Shown one piece after another: positions 46,767 to 62,375 of a stretch of 64,000 nt of DNA. A program made the position numbers and the translations under genes. This stretch comes from Theocolax elegans (taxonomy: Eukaryota; Arthropoda; Insecta; Hymenoptera; Cerocephalidae). The DNA is taken from the NCBI GenBank assembly GCA_026168455.1, contig CM047431.1:44643466-44707465 (forward strand), in the 5' to 3' direction. Below the pieces are notes generated by a model. The model was not told the origin of the DNA. It worked only from the letters and a program-made list of their open reading frames with translations, and did no database searches. The first letter of the stretch is position 1. Each line of letters begins with the position of its first letter.

Positions 46767-47137
46767 TTAATTTATTAGTTGTTCCAAATAATTTTCATCA
46801 AATTCTTCGTCATCACTTTCCTTTCTTGAATTTTCAGATAGGTATTCTTCGTAACCCATAGCATCACCATCTTCCAAACGTTGTATTTTGTTTAAAGGCT
46901 CCATAGCCAACACAGTGATATATTGCATATTTTCATTATTACTTTGAATTTCCTTTGGGTTTATAATAACAGTTTCGAACCCTTCTAATGTCTGCGAAGA
47001 ATCTTCTGATACACCTTTAAATTTCTGTTTTGATGTGTAGCAGGTACTGGAATTGCTGATAACAGCACTCAGAGCCGATAGTATATCTTTATCACTTGTA
47101 TCAAGCTTGGAAACGGCTCTTCGTTCCTTTATAAGCA
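46767..47137 (-). CDS. terminal exon of an unidentified protein, copy 1
   Basis: The open frame is entered through a good acceptor (AAATTTCAG ending at 47138) and encodes about 122 residues. It starts in split phase as LIKERRAVSK and ends DENYLEQLIN before a stop at 46767-46769. The segment is hydrophilic and acidic, with a Ser/Asn-rich middle and an Asp/Glu-rich tail (KESDDEEFDEN). No ATG suits an independent start, so it is the last exon of a spliced gene whose upstream exons I could not find between the duplicates. I do not recognise the family; it could be host or transposon. The frame is intact in both copies. Confidence 0.5.
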
Positions 47138-49239
47138 CTGAAATTTATTAAATTTAAGTCAGCTTTAATATAAGGATATAATATATCGTAGTTGTTTATG
47201 TATATAATGCTTATCGTGTGAATTTTTAAAACTATTCATCAAAAACAAATAAATTAAATAAATGTGTGTATTCAAAGTGCTTCGTGTTCGCGCTAGTGTG
47301 AATTTATTGGTTGATTATATTTTTCAGTTGTTTTCGTCCAGGCCAACTTTAATATCGAAATTTTACTGACAAAATAATGGTATCTAACCTCCAATAGGCC
47401 ATAAAGTAAGAGAGCAGATAATCATCATAATTTTTGTGTTACAATTTAATCATATTAAAAGATTCCAGATGTTAGTAGGTGATACTAGTGTGTGTGTGTA
47501 ATAAATGTGTGTATTAAGTGTTCATATTAACTAGTGATCAAAAATATATTTTCTTGATGCCCTGGTCGAAAGTACGTAGTTTCGCCACTGTTTTTGATGG
47601 CGAAAGAACAACACTTAGCCACTGGTATTTCTTTCGCTACGCGTGCTATTAGCTGGTCACTAAGCAACTGCACACACTTTTAATGCACATGACATCTCAT
47701 TCGAATGTAATAACCCTCAATTTTCGAAATAAATAAAATATTATTGAATAAATTTAACCTACCTATCCTAATCTCATGAATCTGAAGATAAGTATTAAAT
47801 ATATAAATGCAAGTTTACGCACTCAAAAAACACTAATGACAATTTATAAAAATCGTCTATTCTGTACGTCAAAGTGAAAATTTACCATGCGAGCAAATTA
47901 CCGATTGAGATTTATTTTTTCTGTATACAGCACATCAAGTAAAAATCTTTAAAGAACATATTAAATCCAACAATCTGTCAAATTTACAGAGTTTTTTATT
48001 AATGCTCCAAAAGTTACAGCAATGTAAACCATTTTTTTAAGAATTGCTGATTTAAAAAAATTAACTAAAATTAATTAAAACATGAATAAATTACAAATTG
48101 GATTTTCTGTAACAAGTAGAATACATATCCCTAGTAGAAATTTAAAACTAAGAACTAGGAATTAAAAATTGGTAGTAAGTACCTTGTGATGAAACGCTTT
48201 TTCTCCCATTTTATTAGCATTTAATAGAATGACCACAACCTCAAAACATTCGAATAATGCTTCCAGCTTTCCGGAAAGAGTAAACTTCAAAATTCCTATA
48301 GTTTCCAATTTACAACTAATTTCTGTTGTATTTCCAGTATTTACGAGGATAAACGCTGTTTTATTAGATTTTTCACTTGTCCATTTTAATAGATATTTAA
48401 TAGGACATAACTAGACTCAACTGTAATCTATATTTACAAGCTCAAAAATGGGAGAAAAATAGGATTTTACATTAATAAATGGTCATAAAATGTGAGAAAA
48501 AGCGTTTCATCGATAGGAGAAAAATGGGCACATTTTTTGCCCATTCTATTCAAACAGTCTATTTAATACTTATTTAATGGAATATGATTTCTACCACTTC
48601 ATTGAAATTTCAATAAAATTTAGTATTATTTCCACAAACTATTAGCTGAAATCGTACGCGTTTACGGAACCGACCGATGTTTACTAACAAATAGACTTAA
48701 CTTGATAGCACGGTTTGCATGAAAAATTGCGTATGAAAAAAGGGAGGGGAGGGAAATTAGAGTTGTATTGTGTGGAATTTTCAATTATATCGACTATAAG
48801 TTGTTATTCTGTGACAGTTTCTGGTGTTTATTATATTTCGTTTTATTTTTATTATTCTATGCTTTATAAATAAAATCTTAATAAACATATCATAATTTTT
48901 TTTGATCTTATTATAAAAAAAATGAAATATCGCGCACAACTTTTGGAGCATTTCTCGCTCATGAAAGCACATTATACCAATCAATTCCAATAATATTCCT
49001 AACCTTTCATACCAAATTTCAAAGGTATGCTCCTAAAATTGCCTGATCCCACATTTTTTCGCCAAAAATTAAAAGTTAGGAAGATTTGCTCATATATATA
49101 TATATATATACACACACATGCATATATAACCTATTTGAATCAATAAATTTGCATGTAAGGTTTGATAGTTTTTTTATTATGAAATATAGATAATAATAAT
49201 TAAAAAGTTGTAATAATAATAAAAAACAGAAAAAAGTAT

Positions 49240-49610
49240 TTAATTTATTAGTTGTTCCAAATAATTTTCATCAAATTCTTCGTCATCACTTTCCTTTCTT
49301 GAATTTTCAGATAGGTATTCTTCGTAACCCATAGCATCACCATTTTCCAAACGTTGTATTTTGTTTAAAGGCTCCATAGCCAACACAGTGATATATTGCA
49401 TATTTTCATTATTACTTTGAATTTCCTTTGGGTTTATAATAACAGTTTCGAACCCTTCTAATGTCTGCGAAGAATCTTCTGATACACCTTTAAATTTCTG
49501 TTTTGATGTGTAGCAGGTACTGGAATTGCTGATAACAGCACTCAGAGCCGATAGTATATCTTTATCACTTGTATCAAGCTTGGAAACGGCTCTTCGTTCC
49601 TTTATAAGCA
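49240..49610 (-). CDS. terminal exon of an unidentified protein, copy 2
   Basis: This is the second copy of the exon at 46767-47137 within the tandem duplication, with the same acceptor and stop. I see a single coding difference: the residue in LE(D)GDAM is Asn here and Asp in copy 1 (one base). The open frame therefore persists after duplication, though the duplication may be too young for this to mean constraint. Whether either copy is still spliced to upstream exons cannot be seen. Confidence 0.45.
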
Positions 49611-50397
49611 CTGAAATTTATTAAATTTAAGTCAGCTTTTAATATAAGGATATAATATATCGTAGTTGTTTATGTATATAATGCTTATCGTGTGAATTTT
49701 TAAAACTATTCATCAAAAACAAATAAATTAAATAAATGTGTGTATTCAAAGTGCTTCGTGTTCGCGCTAGTGTGAATTTATTGGTTGATTATATTTTTCA
49801 GTTGTTTTCGTCCAGGCCAACTTTAATATCGAAATTTTACTGACAAAATAATGGTATCTAACCTCCAATAGGCCATAAAGTAAGAGAGCAGATAATCATC
49901 ATAATTTTTGTGTTACAATTTAATCATATTAAAAGATTCCAGATGTTAGTAGGTGATACTAGTGTGTGTGTGTAATAAATGTGTGTATTAAGTGTTCATA
50001 TTAACTAGTGATCAAAAAATATATTTTCTTGATGCCCTGGTCGAAAGTACGTAGTTTCGCCACTGTTTTTGATGGCGAAAGAACAACACTTAGCCACTGG
50101 TATTTCTTTCGCTACGCGTGCTATTAGCTGGTCACTAAGCAACTGCACACACTTTTAATGCACATGACATCTCATTCGAATGTAATAACCCTCAATTTTC
50201 GAAATAAATAAAATATTATTGAATAAATTTAACCTACCTATCCTAATCTCATGAATCTGAAGATAAGTATTAAATATATATAAATGCAAGTTTACGCACT
50301 CAAAAAACACTAATGACAATTTATAAAAATCGTCTATTCTGTACGTCAAAGTGAAAATTTACCATGCGAGCAAATTACCGATTGAGATTTATTAGTT

Positions 50398-51104: not shown

Positions 51105-51557
51105 AATAGTATATTACACACCTAGGGAGGTAAAGTATTGGTCAGTCCATAGCACATGTAAATTGGCACCTGAGCCGAAGGCGAGGGTGGCAAACATGTG
51201 CTATGGGGTGACCATTTTACCTCCCGTGGGATGTATACTATTTTTCACCACCAGTAGGCCGAAAATAACACATTCCTTTTTCGGTGCCGGAAGGGAATGT
51301 GGTACTTTCGGTCTACGTGTGGTGAAAATAGATTTTTCACCACACGTAGACCGAAAGTACCACATTCCCTTCCGGCACCGAAAAAGGAATGTGTTATTTT
51401 CGGCCTACTGGTGGTGAAAAATAGTATACATCCCACGGGAGGTAAAATGGTCACCCCATAGCACATGTTTGCCACCCTCGCCTTCGGCTCAGGTGCCAAT
51501 TTATATGTGCTATGGACTGACCAATACTTTACCTCCCTAGGTGTGTAATATACTATT
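51105..51557. mobile_element. near-perfect 453-bp palindrome (foldback element)
   Basis: The ends AATAGTATATTACACACC and their complement enclose arms of about 220 bp that are almost identical inverted repeats meeting at 51331. Each arm itself contains a smaller hairpin (CATAGCACATGT against ACATGTGCTATG) with the loop motif GAGCCGAAGGCGAGGGTGGC. No credible protein is encoded; open frames on both strands arise from the symmetry. Confidence 0.9.
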
Positions 51558-51803
51558 GTTGCAACCCGCGTAAAAATATAAACTATTGCCACTATATTGC
51601 CGAGCAATGGGCAATAGCTATTGCAAACATATTGCCAATATGTTGCCGCGACAATTGGCAATGTATTGCCAACATACCGCCAAACTGCATCCTCCCATAT
51701 CTTTGCCAAATATTGGCAATAGTTACTATCTTACCTTTTGTAAACTATTGCCAATATGTTGGCCATACCTCATAAATTTAAAAAAAAAATAAAAAAAAAA
51801 TAT

Positions 51804-51876
51804 TAGCCAGCCGCGGGATTTGAACCTTCGATCTTTAGATCCGAATGCTGGCTCTTTACCACTGAGCCATTTTGCT
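51804..51876 (-). other. tRNA-like segment (SINE-like promoter module), left arm
   Basis: On the minus strand it shows an A-box TGGCTCAGTGG and a B-box GGTTCAAATCC spaced as in a tRNA gene over 73 nt, with a good D-arm (GCTC/GAGC). The putative acceptor ends do not pair and the anticodon arm is poor. Instead AGCCAGC after the D-arm pairs with the 3' GCTGGCT. It is therefore a tRNA-derived RNA polymerase III module rather than a functional tRNA. Confidence 0.55.
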
Positions 51877-52004
51877 ATTTTTTAATAAGAGTTAATTTCA
51901 GGCTATAAAGAACAGTTGAAAGTGTGGTTACAAAATTTTTAAGTGCAAAATTTTATGAATTCAACTGTTCTTTATAGCCTGAAATTAACTCTTTATAACA
52001 AAAT

Positions 52005-52076
52005 AGCAAAATGGCTCAGTGGTAAAGAGCCAGCATTCGGATCTAAAGATCAAAGGTTCAAATCCCGCGGCTGGCT
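52005..52076 (+). other. tRNA-like segment, right arm (inverted partner)
   Basis: It is the inverted counterpart of 51804-51876, with A-box TGGCTCAGTGG and B-box GGTTCAAATCC on the plus strand, and differs at one position (GATCAAAGG against GATCGAAGG). The two modules point inward-to-outward from the central loop, so polymerase III transcription from either would read out through an arm. Confidence 0.55.
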
Positions 52077-52125
52077 AATATTTTTTTTATTTTTTACAAA
52101 TGATAAAATAGTAACTATTGCCAAT

Positions 52126-52673
52126 TACTGAGGAGTCCAAACTGGAGATCGAGGACGAAACGCCTTTAATTATTTTAAAAGGCCGTGCTCTGGGAAATTC
52201 CACCAACCATAGTGGACAAAGAGTACGATAGGCCTGCTTTATTCTAAAAGTAAAGCATTTGGCTCGGAGAGACCGATATTATTATACATATACATATTAC
52301 CGAACGTTAAAATTTTGTAACAAATAACTCGCGATACGGTCTAAAAATTCGCGCTCTGGCTGGTGGCTTTTCCCACCACCAGAGGGAGACGACTATCTCT
52401 CTACACTCGTTGGAGAGACGCGTCTGTTTTCTATATATATAGCCGCAGAACATCTTGCTGGCGTCGCATATCATCTTGCGACAGGCGTCTAAGGTAAGAT
52501 CTCCAGTTCCTTACTGAGGAGTCCAAGCTGGAGATCGAGGACGAAACGCCTTTAATTATTTTAAAAGGCCGTGCTCTGGGAAATTCCACCAACCATAGTG
52601 GACAAAGAGTACGATAGGCCTGCTTTATTCTAAAAGTAAAGCATTTGGTTCGGAGAGACCGATATTATTATAC
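52126..52673 (+). mobile_element. retrozyme-like retroelement: 1.4-mer of a 386-bp hammerhead-bearing unit
   Basis: CTGAGGAGTCC at 52128 recurs at 52514, so the insert holds one full 386-nt unit plus 160 nt of the next. It is flanked by the 16-bp direct repeat AGTAACTATTGCCAAT (52110-52125 and 52674-52689). The left arm of the host foldback preserves the unduplicated empty site (complement near 51706-51727). The unit is non-coding and carries a complete hammerhead ribozyme at the unit junction. The greater-than-unit length with a self-cleaving junction is what reverse transcription of a circular or multimeric RNA would give, as proposed for retrozymes and seen in Penelope-like pseudo-LTRs. 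No priming site or polypurine tract was identified. Confidence 0.8.
52484..52550 (+). ncRNA. hammerhead ribozyme (open at stem III), intact core
   Basis: This is a self-cleaving RNA of 67 nt. Stem III pairs GGCGU (52484-52488) with ACGCC (52546-52550). The predicted cleavage follows C at 52489. Stem I pairs UAAGG (52490-52494) with CCUUA (52509-52513). Core CUGAGGA (52514-52520) fits CUGANGA. Stem II pairs GUCC (52521-52524) with GGAC (52539-52542), and GAAA (52543-52546) completes the core. The loops of stems I and II are each 14 nt and contain an 11-nt complementary pair (GAUCUCCAGUU with AGCUGGAGAUC, one G-U). All invariant core positions are present, so activity is likely but untested. 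Confidence 0.88.
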
Positions 52674-52847
52674 AGTAACTATTGCCAATATTTGGCAAAG
52701 ATATGGGAGGATGCAGTTTGGCGGTATGTTGGCAATACATTGCTAATTGTCGCGGCAACATATTCGCAATATGTTTGCAATAGCTATTGCCCATTGCTCG
52801 GCAATATAGTGGCAATAGTTTATATTTTTACGCGGGAACTATGAGAG

Positions 52848-53422
52848 CTGTTTTCTGGTACCCAAATTTGAAAGAATTCATATGAAATTCAATCTCATAG
52901 GCTGTTTCACAAAAGTTATACGGAGTTATCGAAAAATCGTGAAAAAAATATGTTTAAGCTTAATCGCCAATAACTTGGAAAGAAATGGACGTAGTTGCTC
53001 AAACTCAAATACATTAAATAGTTGAGATGAAGTAGACATGGTTTTAAAAAAAGAAGCTCAAATATTTTAATATGGTCAAAAGTTATGGAAAAAATAAGAA
53101 TTAGATAAAATTTTAACGAAAATTTAGTATTAAAATTTGAGAGACTTTTTAGGCCAATATTTCGTCTAATTCTTATTGTTTCCTTAACTTTTGTCCAAAA
53201 TGAGATATTTGAGCTTCTTTTTTTTAATGTATGTCTACTTCATCTCAACTGTTTAATGGATTTGAGATTAAGTATGTGCGTCTATTTCTTTCCGAGGTAT
53301 TGACGATTAAGCTTAAACATATTTTTTTCACGATTTTTCGATAACTCCGTATAACTTTTGTGAAACAGCCTATGAGATTGAATATCATATGAATTCTTTC
53401 AAATTTGGGTACCAGAAAACAG
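52848..53422. mobile_element. 575-bp imperfect hairpin element
   Basis: The ends CTGTTTTCTGGTACCC and their complement, with arms including TCTCATAGGCTGTTTCAC and TTATCGAAAAATCGTG, are matched in inverse orientation on the right, meeting near 53135. No ORF is present. It starts 12 bp after the previous foldback element, completing a chain of four. Confidence 0.85.
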
Positions 53423-53644
53423 GTCTTAAAGTTGCAACAAAATCTGTTTTCCGGAAGGTGGAACGCCTCCTTGTTAGTAGAGTTTGCTGAAAGCTGATTT
53501 TTACATTTTTTGAAACTAAATGATTGGATCGTAATGAAAGTGCATCATCAATGTTAGGATTATCTAATAAATATCAAACATTTATACGTAAATAATTATT
53601 GTAAATATTATATTTTTGTACTAGTGTTAATTATTTTAACTTAC

Positions 53645-55931: not shown

Positions 55932-57905
55932 TTAAAGGCATGAAAGTTCAAGTATGATCCTAAAAGTACTCTGGTCGTCAGTCCTTTCAATTCACGGTTC
56001 GTAAAGCCATGCATACGAAGTCGATCCTCCGAGTCCTTCGCCCATATTCCTCGCCAACTTACTGTTATTGCATGTACTGAAATCCTTGCGATATCCACCT
56101 GGCATAATTGCGCAACCTTACCTACCAGATCTTGGTTCGATCTGTAATATTCAATCTTCGTTCTGTTCGTCTGAGCGAGCGGCCTTGCACCTGATACAAT
56201 CTGTATATCCAGTATATCCACGTCTCCATTCCTTTGAACTATCTAGTCCGGATTCCTCATTCCAGCTGACGTATGGAAGGACTTCTCCTTGTAAGTTACG
56301 TAACCTCTGGAGACAAACCGATCACCTATCGTCTTTACTATGGCGTCATGCCTCTTCACCCTTCCTCCATGTGTTCTGGAACACTCTTGAATCACATGTG
56401 CCGTAGTCTCAGATCTCATACATCCAGTTCTGCATAGTGGATCGCCTTGAGCTAATCGTCGTCCTCTTGTTGTTCTTATTGCTGATGGTAGAGCGTTTAT
56501 TCTTACATGGATGTACTTAATCCAGTCTCTTGAAGGAATTGACACAAAGTCGTCGTTAAACCATCCATAGGAGGATCTCGATTTGTGCGTCTCACGTAAC
56601 TCCAGCCCATCTACAGCCGTGTGTAGCTTCAGCTTCCAATCGCCACGTCTCACGCGTGCATGACGACACCATGCTATCTTATCCATAGCCCATTGACTAC
56701 CGGACGTCCACACCGCACCGGGCGCCTTAGATGTTCTTAATCTACTTATACGTTCTCTCGTGAGTTCAGGAATCAGGCTTTCGAATGGCAGTATTCCCAT
56801 CCCTCCGTAGCAGACTTCCGCATGGAAAAAGGATGTTGGTGTATCGTGTGGAAGTCTCAGCCATTTCTTTACCGCTCTCCTCATTTATTTATCTGCTTTC
56901 CTCAATTCACCATAAAGGGTACGTCCCAGTACCAAAGCGTGCGTAAATCGGGGCAATAGAAACATTTTCAATATTTTTATGCGCTGTTGTGGTTTCAAGG
57001 GTGCTGCTGATATCTGTCGCAGATAATTCTCCAAATCCAACTTCTGTTTGACGAGTCCGTAGGAGTTAAATTCGACTCCCAAGTAACACCAAGTATCCTC
57101 AATACCCAGTTGAGGAATATCTCTGTCATCTATCGTAAAAGGGTCGTTCCTTGTAACCTTCACTTTCTTCTCTCTGCCAGAAGGTTCCAAGGCGAGAGTA
57201 GCGCACTTTGCTGGCATTACGCATAAACCTTTCTCTCTTAACGTACTGCATATGGCCCTTAGTTGAAGTTGCAGACCTGTCCTCGTACTTGCTAGCAATA
57301 TCAGATCGTCTGCAAAGGCCAGTGCGTTAATACGAGAGGGACCCACAACGTATCCTATATCATTCGAGAGAGCTTCCAGTCCCTCATCCATTACCATGTT
57401 GAATATGATAGGCGAAAGAGGATCCCCTTGGCGTACCCCCTGTCCGGGAGATATCCACTCCGAAGCCTGTCCTTTCACCTCTAACCTAGTTTTTGCCTTG
57501 GGGTATAGTGCGAGAATATATTTCCGGATCACGTAAGACACTTTCTTTCCACGCAAAGCGTTCTTGATAGCAGCATGGAAAACTGTGTCGAAAGCCTTAC
57601 GCATATCAAGGATAGCCGTAAACAAAGGTTTCCTACAGAGTCGAGCATCTTTTAAAATTGCAGATAGCATCGTGGTATTTTCTGCCGCGCCATCCGCCTC
57701 TATGAATGCCCGCTGTCTCTCGTCCACATTACACGCTGCCGAAATCCTCTTCGCCAATATCTTATGAAGATGTCTCTGTACTACAGATGCGATGGATAAT
57801 GGCCGAAAGTCCGCAGGGTCGTTTGTATCCTTCTTAGGAATCAATATCGTCCGGGAATCGTTGATAAGGTCCGGGCTAATGGAATGTGCGATACTGCTTG
57901 TTTGC
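55932..57905 (-). pseudogene. R2-like non-LTR retrotransposon fragment (reverse transcriptase, zinc knuckle, endonuclease)
   Basis: One frame runs almost 2 kb and starts at RT motif 1 (SRTILIPKKD). Next come motif A (LDMRKAFDTVFH), motif B (GQGVRQGDPLSPIIFN), the catalytic FADD near 57316, a knuckle CRTGCMRSETTAHVIQEC near 56437, and a restriction-like endonuclease with RNPD, LDIQIVSG and RTKIEYY. This order is typical of R2, which normally inserts in 28S rDNA by target-primed reverse transcription. Only two nonsense codons break it: TAA 56885-56887 between RT and thumb, and TAG 56243-56245 just after PD. The N-terminal zinc-finger/Myb region and the 3' UTR are missing. It sits inside a transposase gene, not rDNA. 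Junctions are placed to within about 20 bp. Confidence 0.85.
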
Positions 57906-59280
57906 TTGACAGTAATCGACAAGCCACATGAAACAAGATGAAATGATCATATAAGTCTTTATGAAGAATCTTCTTCAGAACTATTGGCCCACAATATAAT
58001 GCAAAAAATCTATATTCGACAGCTTTGTAGTCACTGTAGTCTTCTTTAAGTAGTCTTGTTCTACGATTCAACTCTATTTTTTGGCTGTTGCTTATCCGCA
58101 CATTAAATCACCACACATCCAATTTTCAAGCAATCTTAACATACAACCTAAATATAACAGGTGCATGGAATCAAGAACAAACTTTTGTATTATATCTATT
58201 TCTGGTTCAATAGCCATCAACCGTGAAGGTGCTATATGGTGATTTATATCGGTGAACAATCTAAAATTTTGATTCGTCCTTTTCTCACCATTAGATGTAT
58301 AAACAGTAACACTATCCACTTTATAAGCAACTACCTGGCATCGCTCACATCCATTAAAACTAGTGTGACCTTTTATGCCTTTTATTTGTGCTCTTGCAGG
58401 TGTATCGCATATAAAGCTTCTAATCTCAACTGTGAACTTTTGTGATTTAATAATAATTCCATTTGCTAGAATATCATTTATTTCTAACACAAAAGGCTTC
58501 AGATATTCATTGTTGTCTTTAGGTTTTCCATTACCATAAAACACTAAGACAGTGAATGGCTTGTAAACTTGTGGCATTATCTTATAAAACACTTTACACA
58601 AAATAGGCCACATGGTCTTCGGACTTGATTTTTTAATTTTAACTCCATCTACAATAAATTCAAGTATAATGGTATTATCCTTGTGTAACAGAGGATTGAC
58701 ACACTCTTCAAGGCCTTTTTTAATTCCAAGATTGCAATATTCTGCTGGCAAATTACTTGAATCTTCTATGATTTTAATTTTATATTCAGCTGTCGAAGTG
58801 TACAGAAAAGCTTTATAACAAGATGGGATATTTGGTAACAGATTTCTTTTTAAAATTTTTAAAAGAGAATCCAAATGCTTTTTTTGACAACTTGACATTA
58901 TAGCCCAAACTCTCAACTCATCTATCTCATCTATAACTTCATCCGATTCCAAAAAGTTTTCTTTATTGTAAAAATTATTTTGTTCGTCAAACAAATCATC
59001 TTATCTTTCACTTATGCATTCATATTCAATGTTTAAGTTTTCATTATGCCATTCTTCATTGTTCCTTTCATTACCACTGTCACTTTCTATCTCTAAATCT
59101 GTACTAAAATCCGTATCAAAATCAAAACTTCTACAATTAAAATTATGTAATGACTCCTGAATTTTAGTTTTAGTTAACACTTTCACTTACTTCTGACATA
59201 TTATTAAAATTAAATTGTTCGTTAAACGATTTTACAAAACGGTGCTTGCGAACGCGTGCTGTGGTTCTTAACTTAGGCAT
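57906..59280 (-). pseudogene. N-terminal and catalytic part of a CMC/EnSpm-like DDE transposase, interrupted
   Basis: It starts MPKLRTTARVRKHRF at 59280. A GTAAGT...TTCAG segment of 34 bp (59190-59157) would join it in frame to EESLHNFNCRSF. An in-frame TAA lies at 59001-59003. The following 300 residues include FICDTPARA, GHTSFNGCERC (a C-x2-C motif) and LDSMHLLYLGCMLRLL, matching the D, CxxC and DxMH motifs described for CMC-type transposases. A frameshift near 58095 leads to RISNSQKIELN and FILFHVACRLLSS, where the R2-like insert begins. The element is dead: stop, frameshift and insertion. Superfamily assignment is from motif memory; the fold and DDE class are more secure. Confidence 0.6.
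59157..59190 (-). other. 34-nt micro-intron candidate in the transposase 5' end
   Basis: It begins GTAAGT, holds a branch-point-like TTAACTAAAAC and ends TTCAG. Removing it fuses MSE to ESLHNF in one frame, while leaving it gives a stop within a few codons. It is shorter than typical insect introns, so a compound indel is an alternative. Confidence 0.35.
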
Positions 59281-61379: not shown

Positions 61380-61560
61380 CCCATAACATCTTGCTGGCGT
61401 CTAAGGTATGATCTCCAGTTCCTTACTGAATCCAAACTGGAGATCGAGGACGAAACGCCTTTAATTTTTGTAATTTTTTTAAAACGGCCGTACTCTGGAA
61501 AATTCTACCAACCATAGGTGGACACGACTATCTCTCTCTCTCCCTCTCTCGATAGAAGAC
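61380..61560 (+). mobile_element. second retrozyme-like copy, rearranged, with a damaged hammerhead
   Basis: ACATCTTGCTGGCGTCTAAG through GGTGGACA matches the unit at 52126-52673. The hammerhead arms at 61396-61459 keep stem III (GGCGT/ACGCC), stem I (TAAGG/CCTTA), GGAC and GAAA. The core reads CTGAATCC instead of CTGAGGAGTCC, a net loss of three bases including G8/A9, so cleavage should be abolished. After GGTGGACA the sequence jumps to CGACTATCTCTC, deleting part of the unit. It abuts the reverse-transcriptase relic. Confidence 0.75.
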
Positions 61561-61564
61561 TGTT

Positions 61565-62375
61565 ATTATCCAGCTATATGGAAGAAATCACTCATCCTAC
61601 CTATTTGTAAACGTGCCGTCCCGTCTTTTCCATCTGATACACGTCCTATCGCTAATTTATCACTTTTGCCAAGGTGTTCGTTTCTTTGATAACGAATCAA
61701 CTGAGTGACTTTCTTGAGTCCACTTTACGCTCATCACCTTATCAATCGGCCTATCGAGGTGGCTTTAGTACCCAATCAGACCTGTTAAAGGTGACGGATG
61801 ATATAGGGCGTGGATTTGAGGTTGTAGAAGTCACGGTGATGGTCTTGTTTGATATGTCTCGAGCGTTTGAGACTATTGATCATGGTATCTTGATGTCAAA
61901 ATTAAAGGACCTAAATTTTGCGAACGAGACTATTTCTTGGCTCCATTCTAATGTTACCGGTAGGTCGCAAGTGGTTGTCGGTGTTGATGGTTCTTGGCGT
62001 TCCTCAGGGCTCTAGCCCTGGACCAATTTTCTTTTTAATGTATATTAACGCAATATGCTTTTTGCCGATGACCTTAAGATATACATACGTTTCAAGCCTT
62101 CTGAGTGCGTTGAGGCTATTGCCGTTATATACGTCCAGTGATTCATTGGGTTGATCAAAATGGCTTTAAATTAAACAATGCGAAATTCGAGGCAATTTTG
62201 TCAATGTCTTTGAGGCTTAACCTTGCGAGCTTCCCGTCAATTATAGTTGGTGGAGTCATAGTCCCTCTATCCAACAGTGTCAGGAATCTGGGCGTTATAC
62301 TCTCTGCTGATTTGTCGTGGAGTAAACACATTGCTTCCATTTCGTCTATGGTTCATGGGGTCCTATATAAGTTAA
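61565..62375 (+). pseudogene. Jockey/CR1-type non-LTR reverse transcriptase, 5' part
   Basis: WKKSLILPICK, then RPIANLSLLP (about 61640), SPYQSAYRGGFSTQSDLLK, motif A DMSRAFETIDHGIL, motif B GVPQGSSPGPI (61996 onward) and FADDLKIYI (61 codons later region, FADD at 62061-62072), then WVDQNGFKLNNAKFEAI and the thumb block VRNLGVILSADLSWSKHI. These are RT motifs in the correct order, but at least three frame changes separate them (near 61670, 62000-62060 and 62135), so it is dead. It begins abruptly next to the retrozyme-like fragment and is interrupted at 62376 by the TTAA element. Confidence 0.8.

Follow-up and report, generated by a model that had tools for sequence, protein, structure and literature searches.

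A dispersed type III hammerhead repeat in the wasp Theocolax elegans shares insertion scars with Penelope-like elements

The type III hammerhead in the 64-kb window (the whole stretch of T. elegans DNA analyzed here) lies in one copy of a mobile repeat of 386-nt units that is scattered through the genome. The motif, the insertions, their ends and haplotypes, and a matching signature in Penelope-like elements (PLEs) are directly visible in the genome. The element is most probably a non-autonomous non-LTR retrozyme that carries a type III hammerhead and is copied from circular RNA by PLE machinery priming on both target strands.

The hammerhead motif occupies positions 52483..52551 of the forward strand. 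It includes the 5-bp stem III AGGCG/CGCCU (52483-52487/52547-52551), the cleavage-site nucleotides U52488 and C52489 of a GUC triplet, a 5-bp stem I (52490-52494/52509-52513), the CUGAGGA core segment (52514-52520), a 4-bp stem II (52521-52524/52539-52542), and the GAAA core segment (52543-52546). Helices I and II are each closed by a 14-nt loop while helix III is open, which makes the topology type III, and the motif combines the CUGANGA and GAAA core, a UH cleavage site, and three helices with helix III open, as type III hammerheads do. The loop I stretch GAUCUCCAG (52498..52506) is complementary to the loop II stretch CUGGAGAUC (52528..52536) over 9 bp, extendable by one G-U and one A-U pair, and the two are predicted to form a pseudoknot. 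The preliminary description had listed CUGANGA and GAAA cores, a UC cleavage dinucleotide, and ordered stems of 5, 5, and 4 bp, all of which were found as described; it located the motif correctly, with bounds (52484..52550) one base short on each side, and the position of its predicted cut, between 52489 and 52490, agrees with the layout of stems and core. A descriptor search (stems of at least 4 bp) gave a single match in the 64-kb window, and the same descriptor returned one type III and three type I matches from both strands of 400 Markov-1 random 64-kb windows, a scarcity on which a chance motif is rejected.

The covariance-model check suggested in the preliminary description returned Hammerhead_3 (RF00008) over positions 52482-52552, scoring 36.5 bits (E 1.5e-5 for the 3 kb searched), so the refuting outcome named there did not occur; the match falls under the curated gathering score of 48.5, and the Rfam search gave no match for the hammerhead at gathering score. 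The long loops I and II are a likely reason for this shortfall. Rfam matches to microRNA and sRNA families lay on palindromes, were all under the gathering score, and were taken as artefacts, and exact-pattern scans found nothing in viral contigs or in prokaryote genome contigs. Folded without pseudoknots, a 77-nt stretch reaches its energy minimum as a long hairpin masking the core (-28.9 kcal/mol vs. -12.2 kcal/mol for the bare hammerhead stems) and therefore, the active form would need to be favored by co-transcriptional folding or by the loop-loop helix. Self-cleavage by the hammerhead at 52489/52490 is predicted from this sequence.

The window copy is a one-armed insertion of 1.42 units (52126..52674, forward strand), in which the hammerhead is linked by the 386-nt period to a first copy that begins at 52126, truncated inside stem I, with two differences over the shared 163 nt. 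It lies between target-site duplications of 15-16 bp (52110..52125 and 52674..52689), one base of the right duplication being ambiguous with the element end. Its outer 3' end at 52674 (forward strand) corresponds to unit position 185, which is start site 1 as defined below and recurs internally at 52288 in the first copy, and the region of start site 2 (GTAACA, unit positions ~217-222) is likewise internal at 52317..52325 of the same strand. The insertion is hosted by a palindromic element (51565-52836) with 163-nt outer arms that are 99% complementary, and the other arm of this palindrome retains the empty target site (51694..51735, reverse strand), indicating that the retrozyme was inserted later than the palindrome arose. 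At ~61384..61537 on the forward strand lies a decayed relative of the unit whose CUGANGA core is broken; it has an internal deletion and no Rfam match. The loop complementarity, the 386-nt period with its truncated copy, the duplication with its empty site, this decayed copy, and the setting of the hammerhead in a mobile repeat all go beyond the preliminary description.

Several other repeats and mobile-element remains were identified in the window. At 51105-51557, two 224-nt arms separated by 5 nt form a perfect inverted repeat that contains short imperfect repeats, and a further inverted repeat with 278-nt arms, 89% complementary, lies at 52837-53433. An inverted pair at 51786-51888 and 51993-52095 includes a tRNA-like stretch with motifs resembling the box A and box B consensus, and ARAGORN reported zero tRNAs in the window and the palindrome. 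Two near-identical frames of 125 aa lie 2.47 kb apart (46767-47144 and 49240-49617, reverse strand) as a recent duplication, and a Pfam search with the first of the pair gave no match. LINE-like remains with RVT_1 frames were found at 56243-57946 (reverse strand) and 61656-62015 (forward strand), and a frame at 58092-59000 (reverse strand) has a weak DUF1258 match, has relatives in Hymenoptera, and is probably a transposon protein. Two window proteins, mobile-element-like or unnamed, matched Trichogramma, Nasonia, ants, braconids, a bee, and others, along with a few non-hymenopteran species, which makes a hymenopteran host likely.

A search of the assembly (658 Mb, 1277 contigs) identified at least 180 element matches. 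Loci were read from 36 fetched regions covering the listed clusters, leaving out a duplicate at C7:34655602; four loci that repeat others (L050, L051, L064, and L066) were dropped from insertion counts, and merging gave 38 non-duplicate insertion clusters. Array loci repeated as larger duplicated segments on the same chromosome were L049/L050/L051, L063/L064, and L034/L066. Folded as a circle, the unit (43.8% G+C) reaches -126.9 kcal/mol (z -7.4 vs. 100 dinucleotide shuffles), and its frames read round the circle contained no long ORF and encoded nothing recognizable. Among units of the T. elegans genome with more than 92% identity, the hammerhead core is intact in 167 of 171, bearing out the preliminary claim of an intact hammerhead in an insect genome, and all stem pairs together with the 9-bp loop complementarity are kept in 141 of 171; seven less similar units kept the core in three cases and lost it in four. 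Retention of the core and stems fits a spread that would depend on the ribozyme. The mean minor-allele frequency was 0.0051 in core and stems vs. 0.0150 elsewhere, with equally low values in 24 of 386 rotations; some other parts of the unit are at least as conserved as the hammerhead, and purifying selection on the latter is unsupported. Variation was too low for pseudoknot covariation, with position 38 mostly G or A opposite U, both of which pair, and changes at position 40 breaking one pseudoknot pair in 13 of 171 units. Older retrozyme copies of 78-80% identity were found at L039 (244-991) and L053 (473-711), the former being a divergent pair, which suggests that the insertion mode may be old.

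The 38 clusters comprise 26 with two divergent arms whose 5' ends face each other, 11 with one defined end, and one (L038) with none; four of the 11 one-ended clusters belong to L059 and are pieces of two divergent pairs split by gaps. Arms extend up to ~18 units. The outer 3' ends fall at fixed places in the unit, 61 of 63 lying in two groups ~33 nt apart within unit positions 179-227: site 1 (..GATATTATTATACA) with 33 ends at positions 179-195 and site 2 (..AAAATTTTGTAACA) with 28 ends at positions 208-227, the two remaining ends being at positions 60 and 167. Clustering was strong for outer ends (Rayleigh p 1e-24, n = 63) vs. scattered inner ends (p 0.70, n = 52). At one of 26 junctions (L054) the unit positions of the two joined arms are within 5 nt of each other, and the inner ends are joined with overlaps no longer than 7 nt or with fillers no longer than 40 nt.

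Target-site duplications of at least 11 bp flank 25 of the 38 clusters (range 11-24 bp, exactly 13 bp in 12 cases) and 13 clusters are without one; the longer duplications often owe part of their length to simple repeats or to bases in common with the element end. One site 1 end is paired with one site 2 end in 21 of the 23 two-armed clusters that have such a duplication, the exceptions being L042 (two site 1 ends) and L046 (site 2 and position 167). By our own arithmetic, at least 21 mixed pairs among 23 would have a probability of ~3e-5 if ends were chosen freely and evenly, the limits of the site classes having been drawn after the ends were known. Three two-armed clusters were without a duplication of at least 11 bp, including two with paired site 1 ends in L049, a rearranged and duplicated locus, and L058 with ends at positions 60 and 218.

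The same arrangement was identified in PLEs of the T. elegans genome. Searching the assembly for GIY-YIG yielded 98 matches in open frames of up to 884 aa, and neighboring matches within 10 kb, counted by hand from the list, formed 13 minus-then-plus pairs and no plus-then-minus pair. Four pairs were chosen for their long frames and read. The first (L067) has two copies arranged head-to-head, whose frames of 833 aa and 824 aa both contain RVT_1 and GIY-YIG; its inverted arms are 99.8% alike, it has a 13-bp duplication and, on one arm only, a tail of 30 nt (by our count), and close to each outer end lies a hammerhead-like core (CTGATGA...GAAA). The other three have duplications of 13, 15, and 15 bp and each has one tailed and one untailed end. 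All four pairs thus match 21 of the 23 retrozyme insertions in head-to-head orientation, duplication length, and a tail or offset at one end only, with an end offset of 30 nt in the measured PLE (L067) vs. ~33 nt in the retrozyme. Hallmarks described for PLEs include inverted pLTRs, a duplication of 8-10 bp, and an optional 31-bp tail on one inverted pLTR (PMC3846280). No shared sequence was detected between the retrozyme unit and the PLE read (L067), and recognition would therefore rest on structure or short motifs; in a comparison of start-site motifs between unit and PLE, the best ranks were 4 and 6 of 386 positions, with ties, a resemblance that is at most suggestive.

LINEs or PLEs are thought to move animal retrozymes, with PLEs described as a strong candidate because of co-occurrence, shared hammerheads, and tandem copies (PMC7229834). 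In T. elegans, the scars of retrozyme and PLE insertions agree within one genome in duplication length, arm orientation, and one-sided tail, making the question of the mover directly testable and PLEs the likely engine that copies the ribozyme repeats. The RNA circles, their rolling-circle copying, and trans-mobilization by PLEs are put forward on genomic grounds. Tandem units would be transcribed and each type III hammerhead would cut the RNA into 386-nt monomers that are then circularized. A resident PLE-like protein with reverse transcriptase and GIY-YIG endonuclease would cut the target with a stagger of ~13 nt. Both target 3' ends may then serve as primers for reverse transcription of the circular RNA, starting within it at two fixed places ~33 nt apart, one per target end, a mechanism proposed for the DNA pattern observed, and each cDNA would circle the template for less than one to many turns. 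Joining of the two cDNAs at an arbitrary point would leave the observed pattern of divergent arrays between duplications, with the window copy as a one-armed product of 1.42 turns.

The template may be traced in the haplotypes of the arms. Leaving out L049, L058, and L059, the median difference between units was 0.78% within an arm, 0.52% between the arms of one insertion, and 2.08% between insertions. Over 19 insertions the mean arm-to-arm distance was 0.97%, and none of 20000 arm permutations was as low. The partner arm was the nearest in five of the 19 and within the nearest four in 14, falling outside these in L055, L035, L046, L032, and L056, of which L056 and L032 were the worst; heterogeneity within arms was 3.0% in L056 and 3.5% in L046. 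The likeness of arms indicates that those of one insertion tend to derive from one template haplotype, i.e., a single circle or a set of similar RNAs from the same source, and post-insertion homogenization in long arrays could contribute to it. At the DNA level, the sharing of haplotypes by the arms of an insertion is evidence that the template was a single unit, such as a circle.

An unlikely alternative keeps the retrozyme and the PLE-like machinery and takes as template a transcript of a source array that stayed linear, multimeric, and uncut. Many-unit source arrays exist (L056, L031, and L043) and could yield long linear transcripts, and haplotypes would likewise be shared if the source array were homogeneous. 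However, long transcripts should be cut, given that 167 of 171 units have an intact core, arms of up to ~18 units speak against a linear template, and all compared units of the L061 plus arm are identical while insertions differ. Mobilization of the same retrozyme by a LINE is very unlikely. Twin priming produces insertions with divergent arms in L1 and could be invoked for the arms seen here, LINE-type reverse transcriptase remains are present in the window, and the duplications are variable (11-24 bp), but the fixed internal outer ends, one of each kind, match the four PLE pairs in a comparison made with PLEs alone. More improbable still is that unequal exchange or DNA circles spread the repeat as a satellite in which the hammerhead is a passenger: long tandem arrays are present and some loci are duplicated segments (L049-L051, L063-L064, and L034/L066), but this reading is contradicted by dispersed insertions with duplications, the empty site, fixed outer ends, and divergent arms. 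Array growth after insertion is possible. There is hardly any likelihood of a TRIM-like LTR retrozyme of the plant kind or of a foldback DNA transposon, since although the window copy alone resembles a repeat-interior-repeat structure and two-armed copies end in inverted repeats, arrays and one-armed copies contradict both, the duplications are mostly at least 13 bp rather than 4, inspection of the window copy by eye gave no tRNA primer site after the first repeat or purine tract before the second, and a terminal-inverted-repeat transposon misfits the one-armed copies with their variable 5' end and the variable inner junctions.

Returning to copying of circular RNA by PLE machinery, the paired ends bear on how PLE proteins may work. 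In vitro, a PLE protein extended both strands from two adjacent internal start sites with the tail between them, no difference in start site was seen from one strand to the other, and hammerhead mutants inserted normally (PMC11167929), two results that weigh against the present reading; the pairing of one end of each kind in T. elegans is an addition to that study. Self-priming has been proposed as the origin of PLE inverted repeats (PMC3846280), against which the scattered and mostly non-matching inner junctions argue. With slightly less than even confidence, it is suggested that one ribozyme circle may serve as a rolling template for both strands at once, a PLE dimer giving each strand one start site and the insertion being an asymmetric, bidirectional, rolling-circle target-primed product. 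If true, autonomous PLEs with the same asymmetry would owe their one-sided tail and inverted repeats to it, with no need for self-priming.

A literature search covering few subscription papers found no type III retrozymes in Hymenoptera and no divergent retrozyme arrays with paired start sites. Among known systems, the pDo500 satellite of Dolichopoda cave crickets also has a hammerhead in an insect tandem repeat, whereas it is a ~500-bp satellite with a 49-nt motif and no insertion signature was seen in its description (PMC2837043). The hammerheads of termites, dipterans, and delta-like RNAs are likewise type III, occur in insects, and have pairing between the loops of helices I and II, but are isolated motifs with an extra helix I hairpin compared to the plain 14-nt loop, 9-bp complementarity, and multicopy retrozyme of T. 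elegans; the account of this pseudoknotted architecture in termites and dipterans gives none in hymenopterans (PMC7936874). Plant LTR retrozymes share a type III hammerhead in a non-coding repeat element, whereas their LTRs, primer site, purine tract, 4-bp duplication, and spacing of ~700 bp between ribozymes have no counterpart here (PMC7761336). PLEs are alike in head-to-head arms, duplication, a ~30-nt tail at one end, internal start sites, and a hammerhead near the end, but encode reverse transcriptase and GIY-YIG, as opposed to a retrozyme unit that encodes nothing recognizable (PMC3846280; PMC11167929). The metazoan non-LTR retrozymes, described with type I hammerheads in animals including insects (PMC7229834), resemble the T. 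elegans element in several respects: their tandem units are non-coding, measure a few hundred bp (~150-450 bp), and hold a single hammerhead, G+C is low, self-pairing is strong, duplications exceed 4 bp, and LTR, primer site, and purine tract are lacking; no mention of divergent arms with two paired start sites was seen in their descriptions (PMC7229834; PMC7761336). As its hammerhead is type III in place of type I, the element is classed as a variant of the metazoan non-LTR retrozyme; it puts a type III hammerhead whose loops are complementary over a long stretch into an animal retrozyme, and into a hymenopteran genome.
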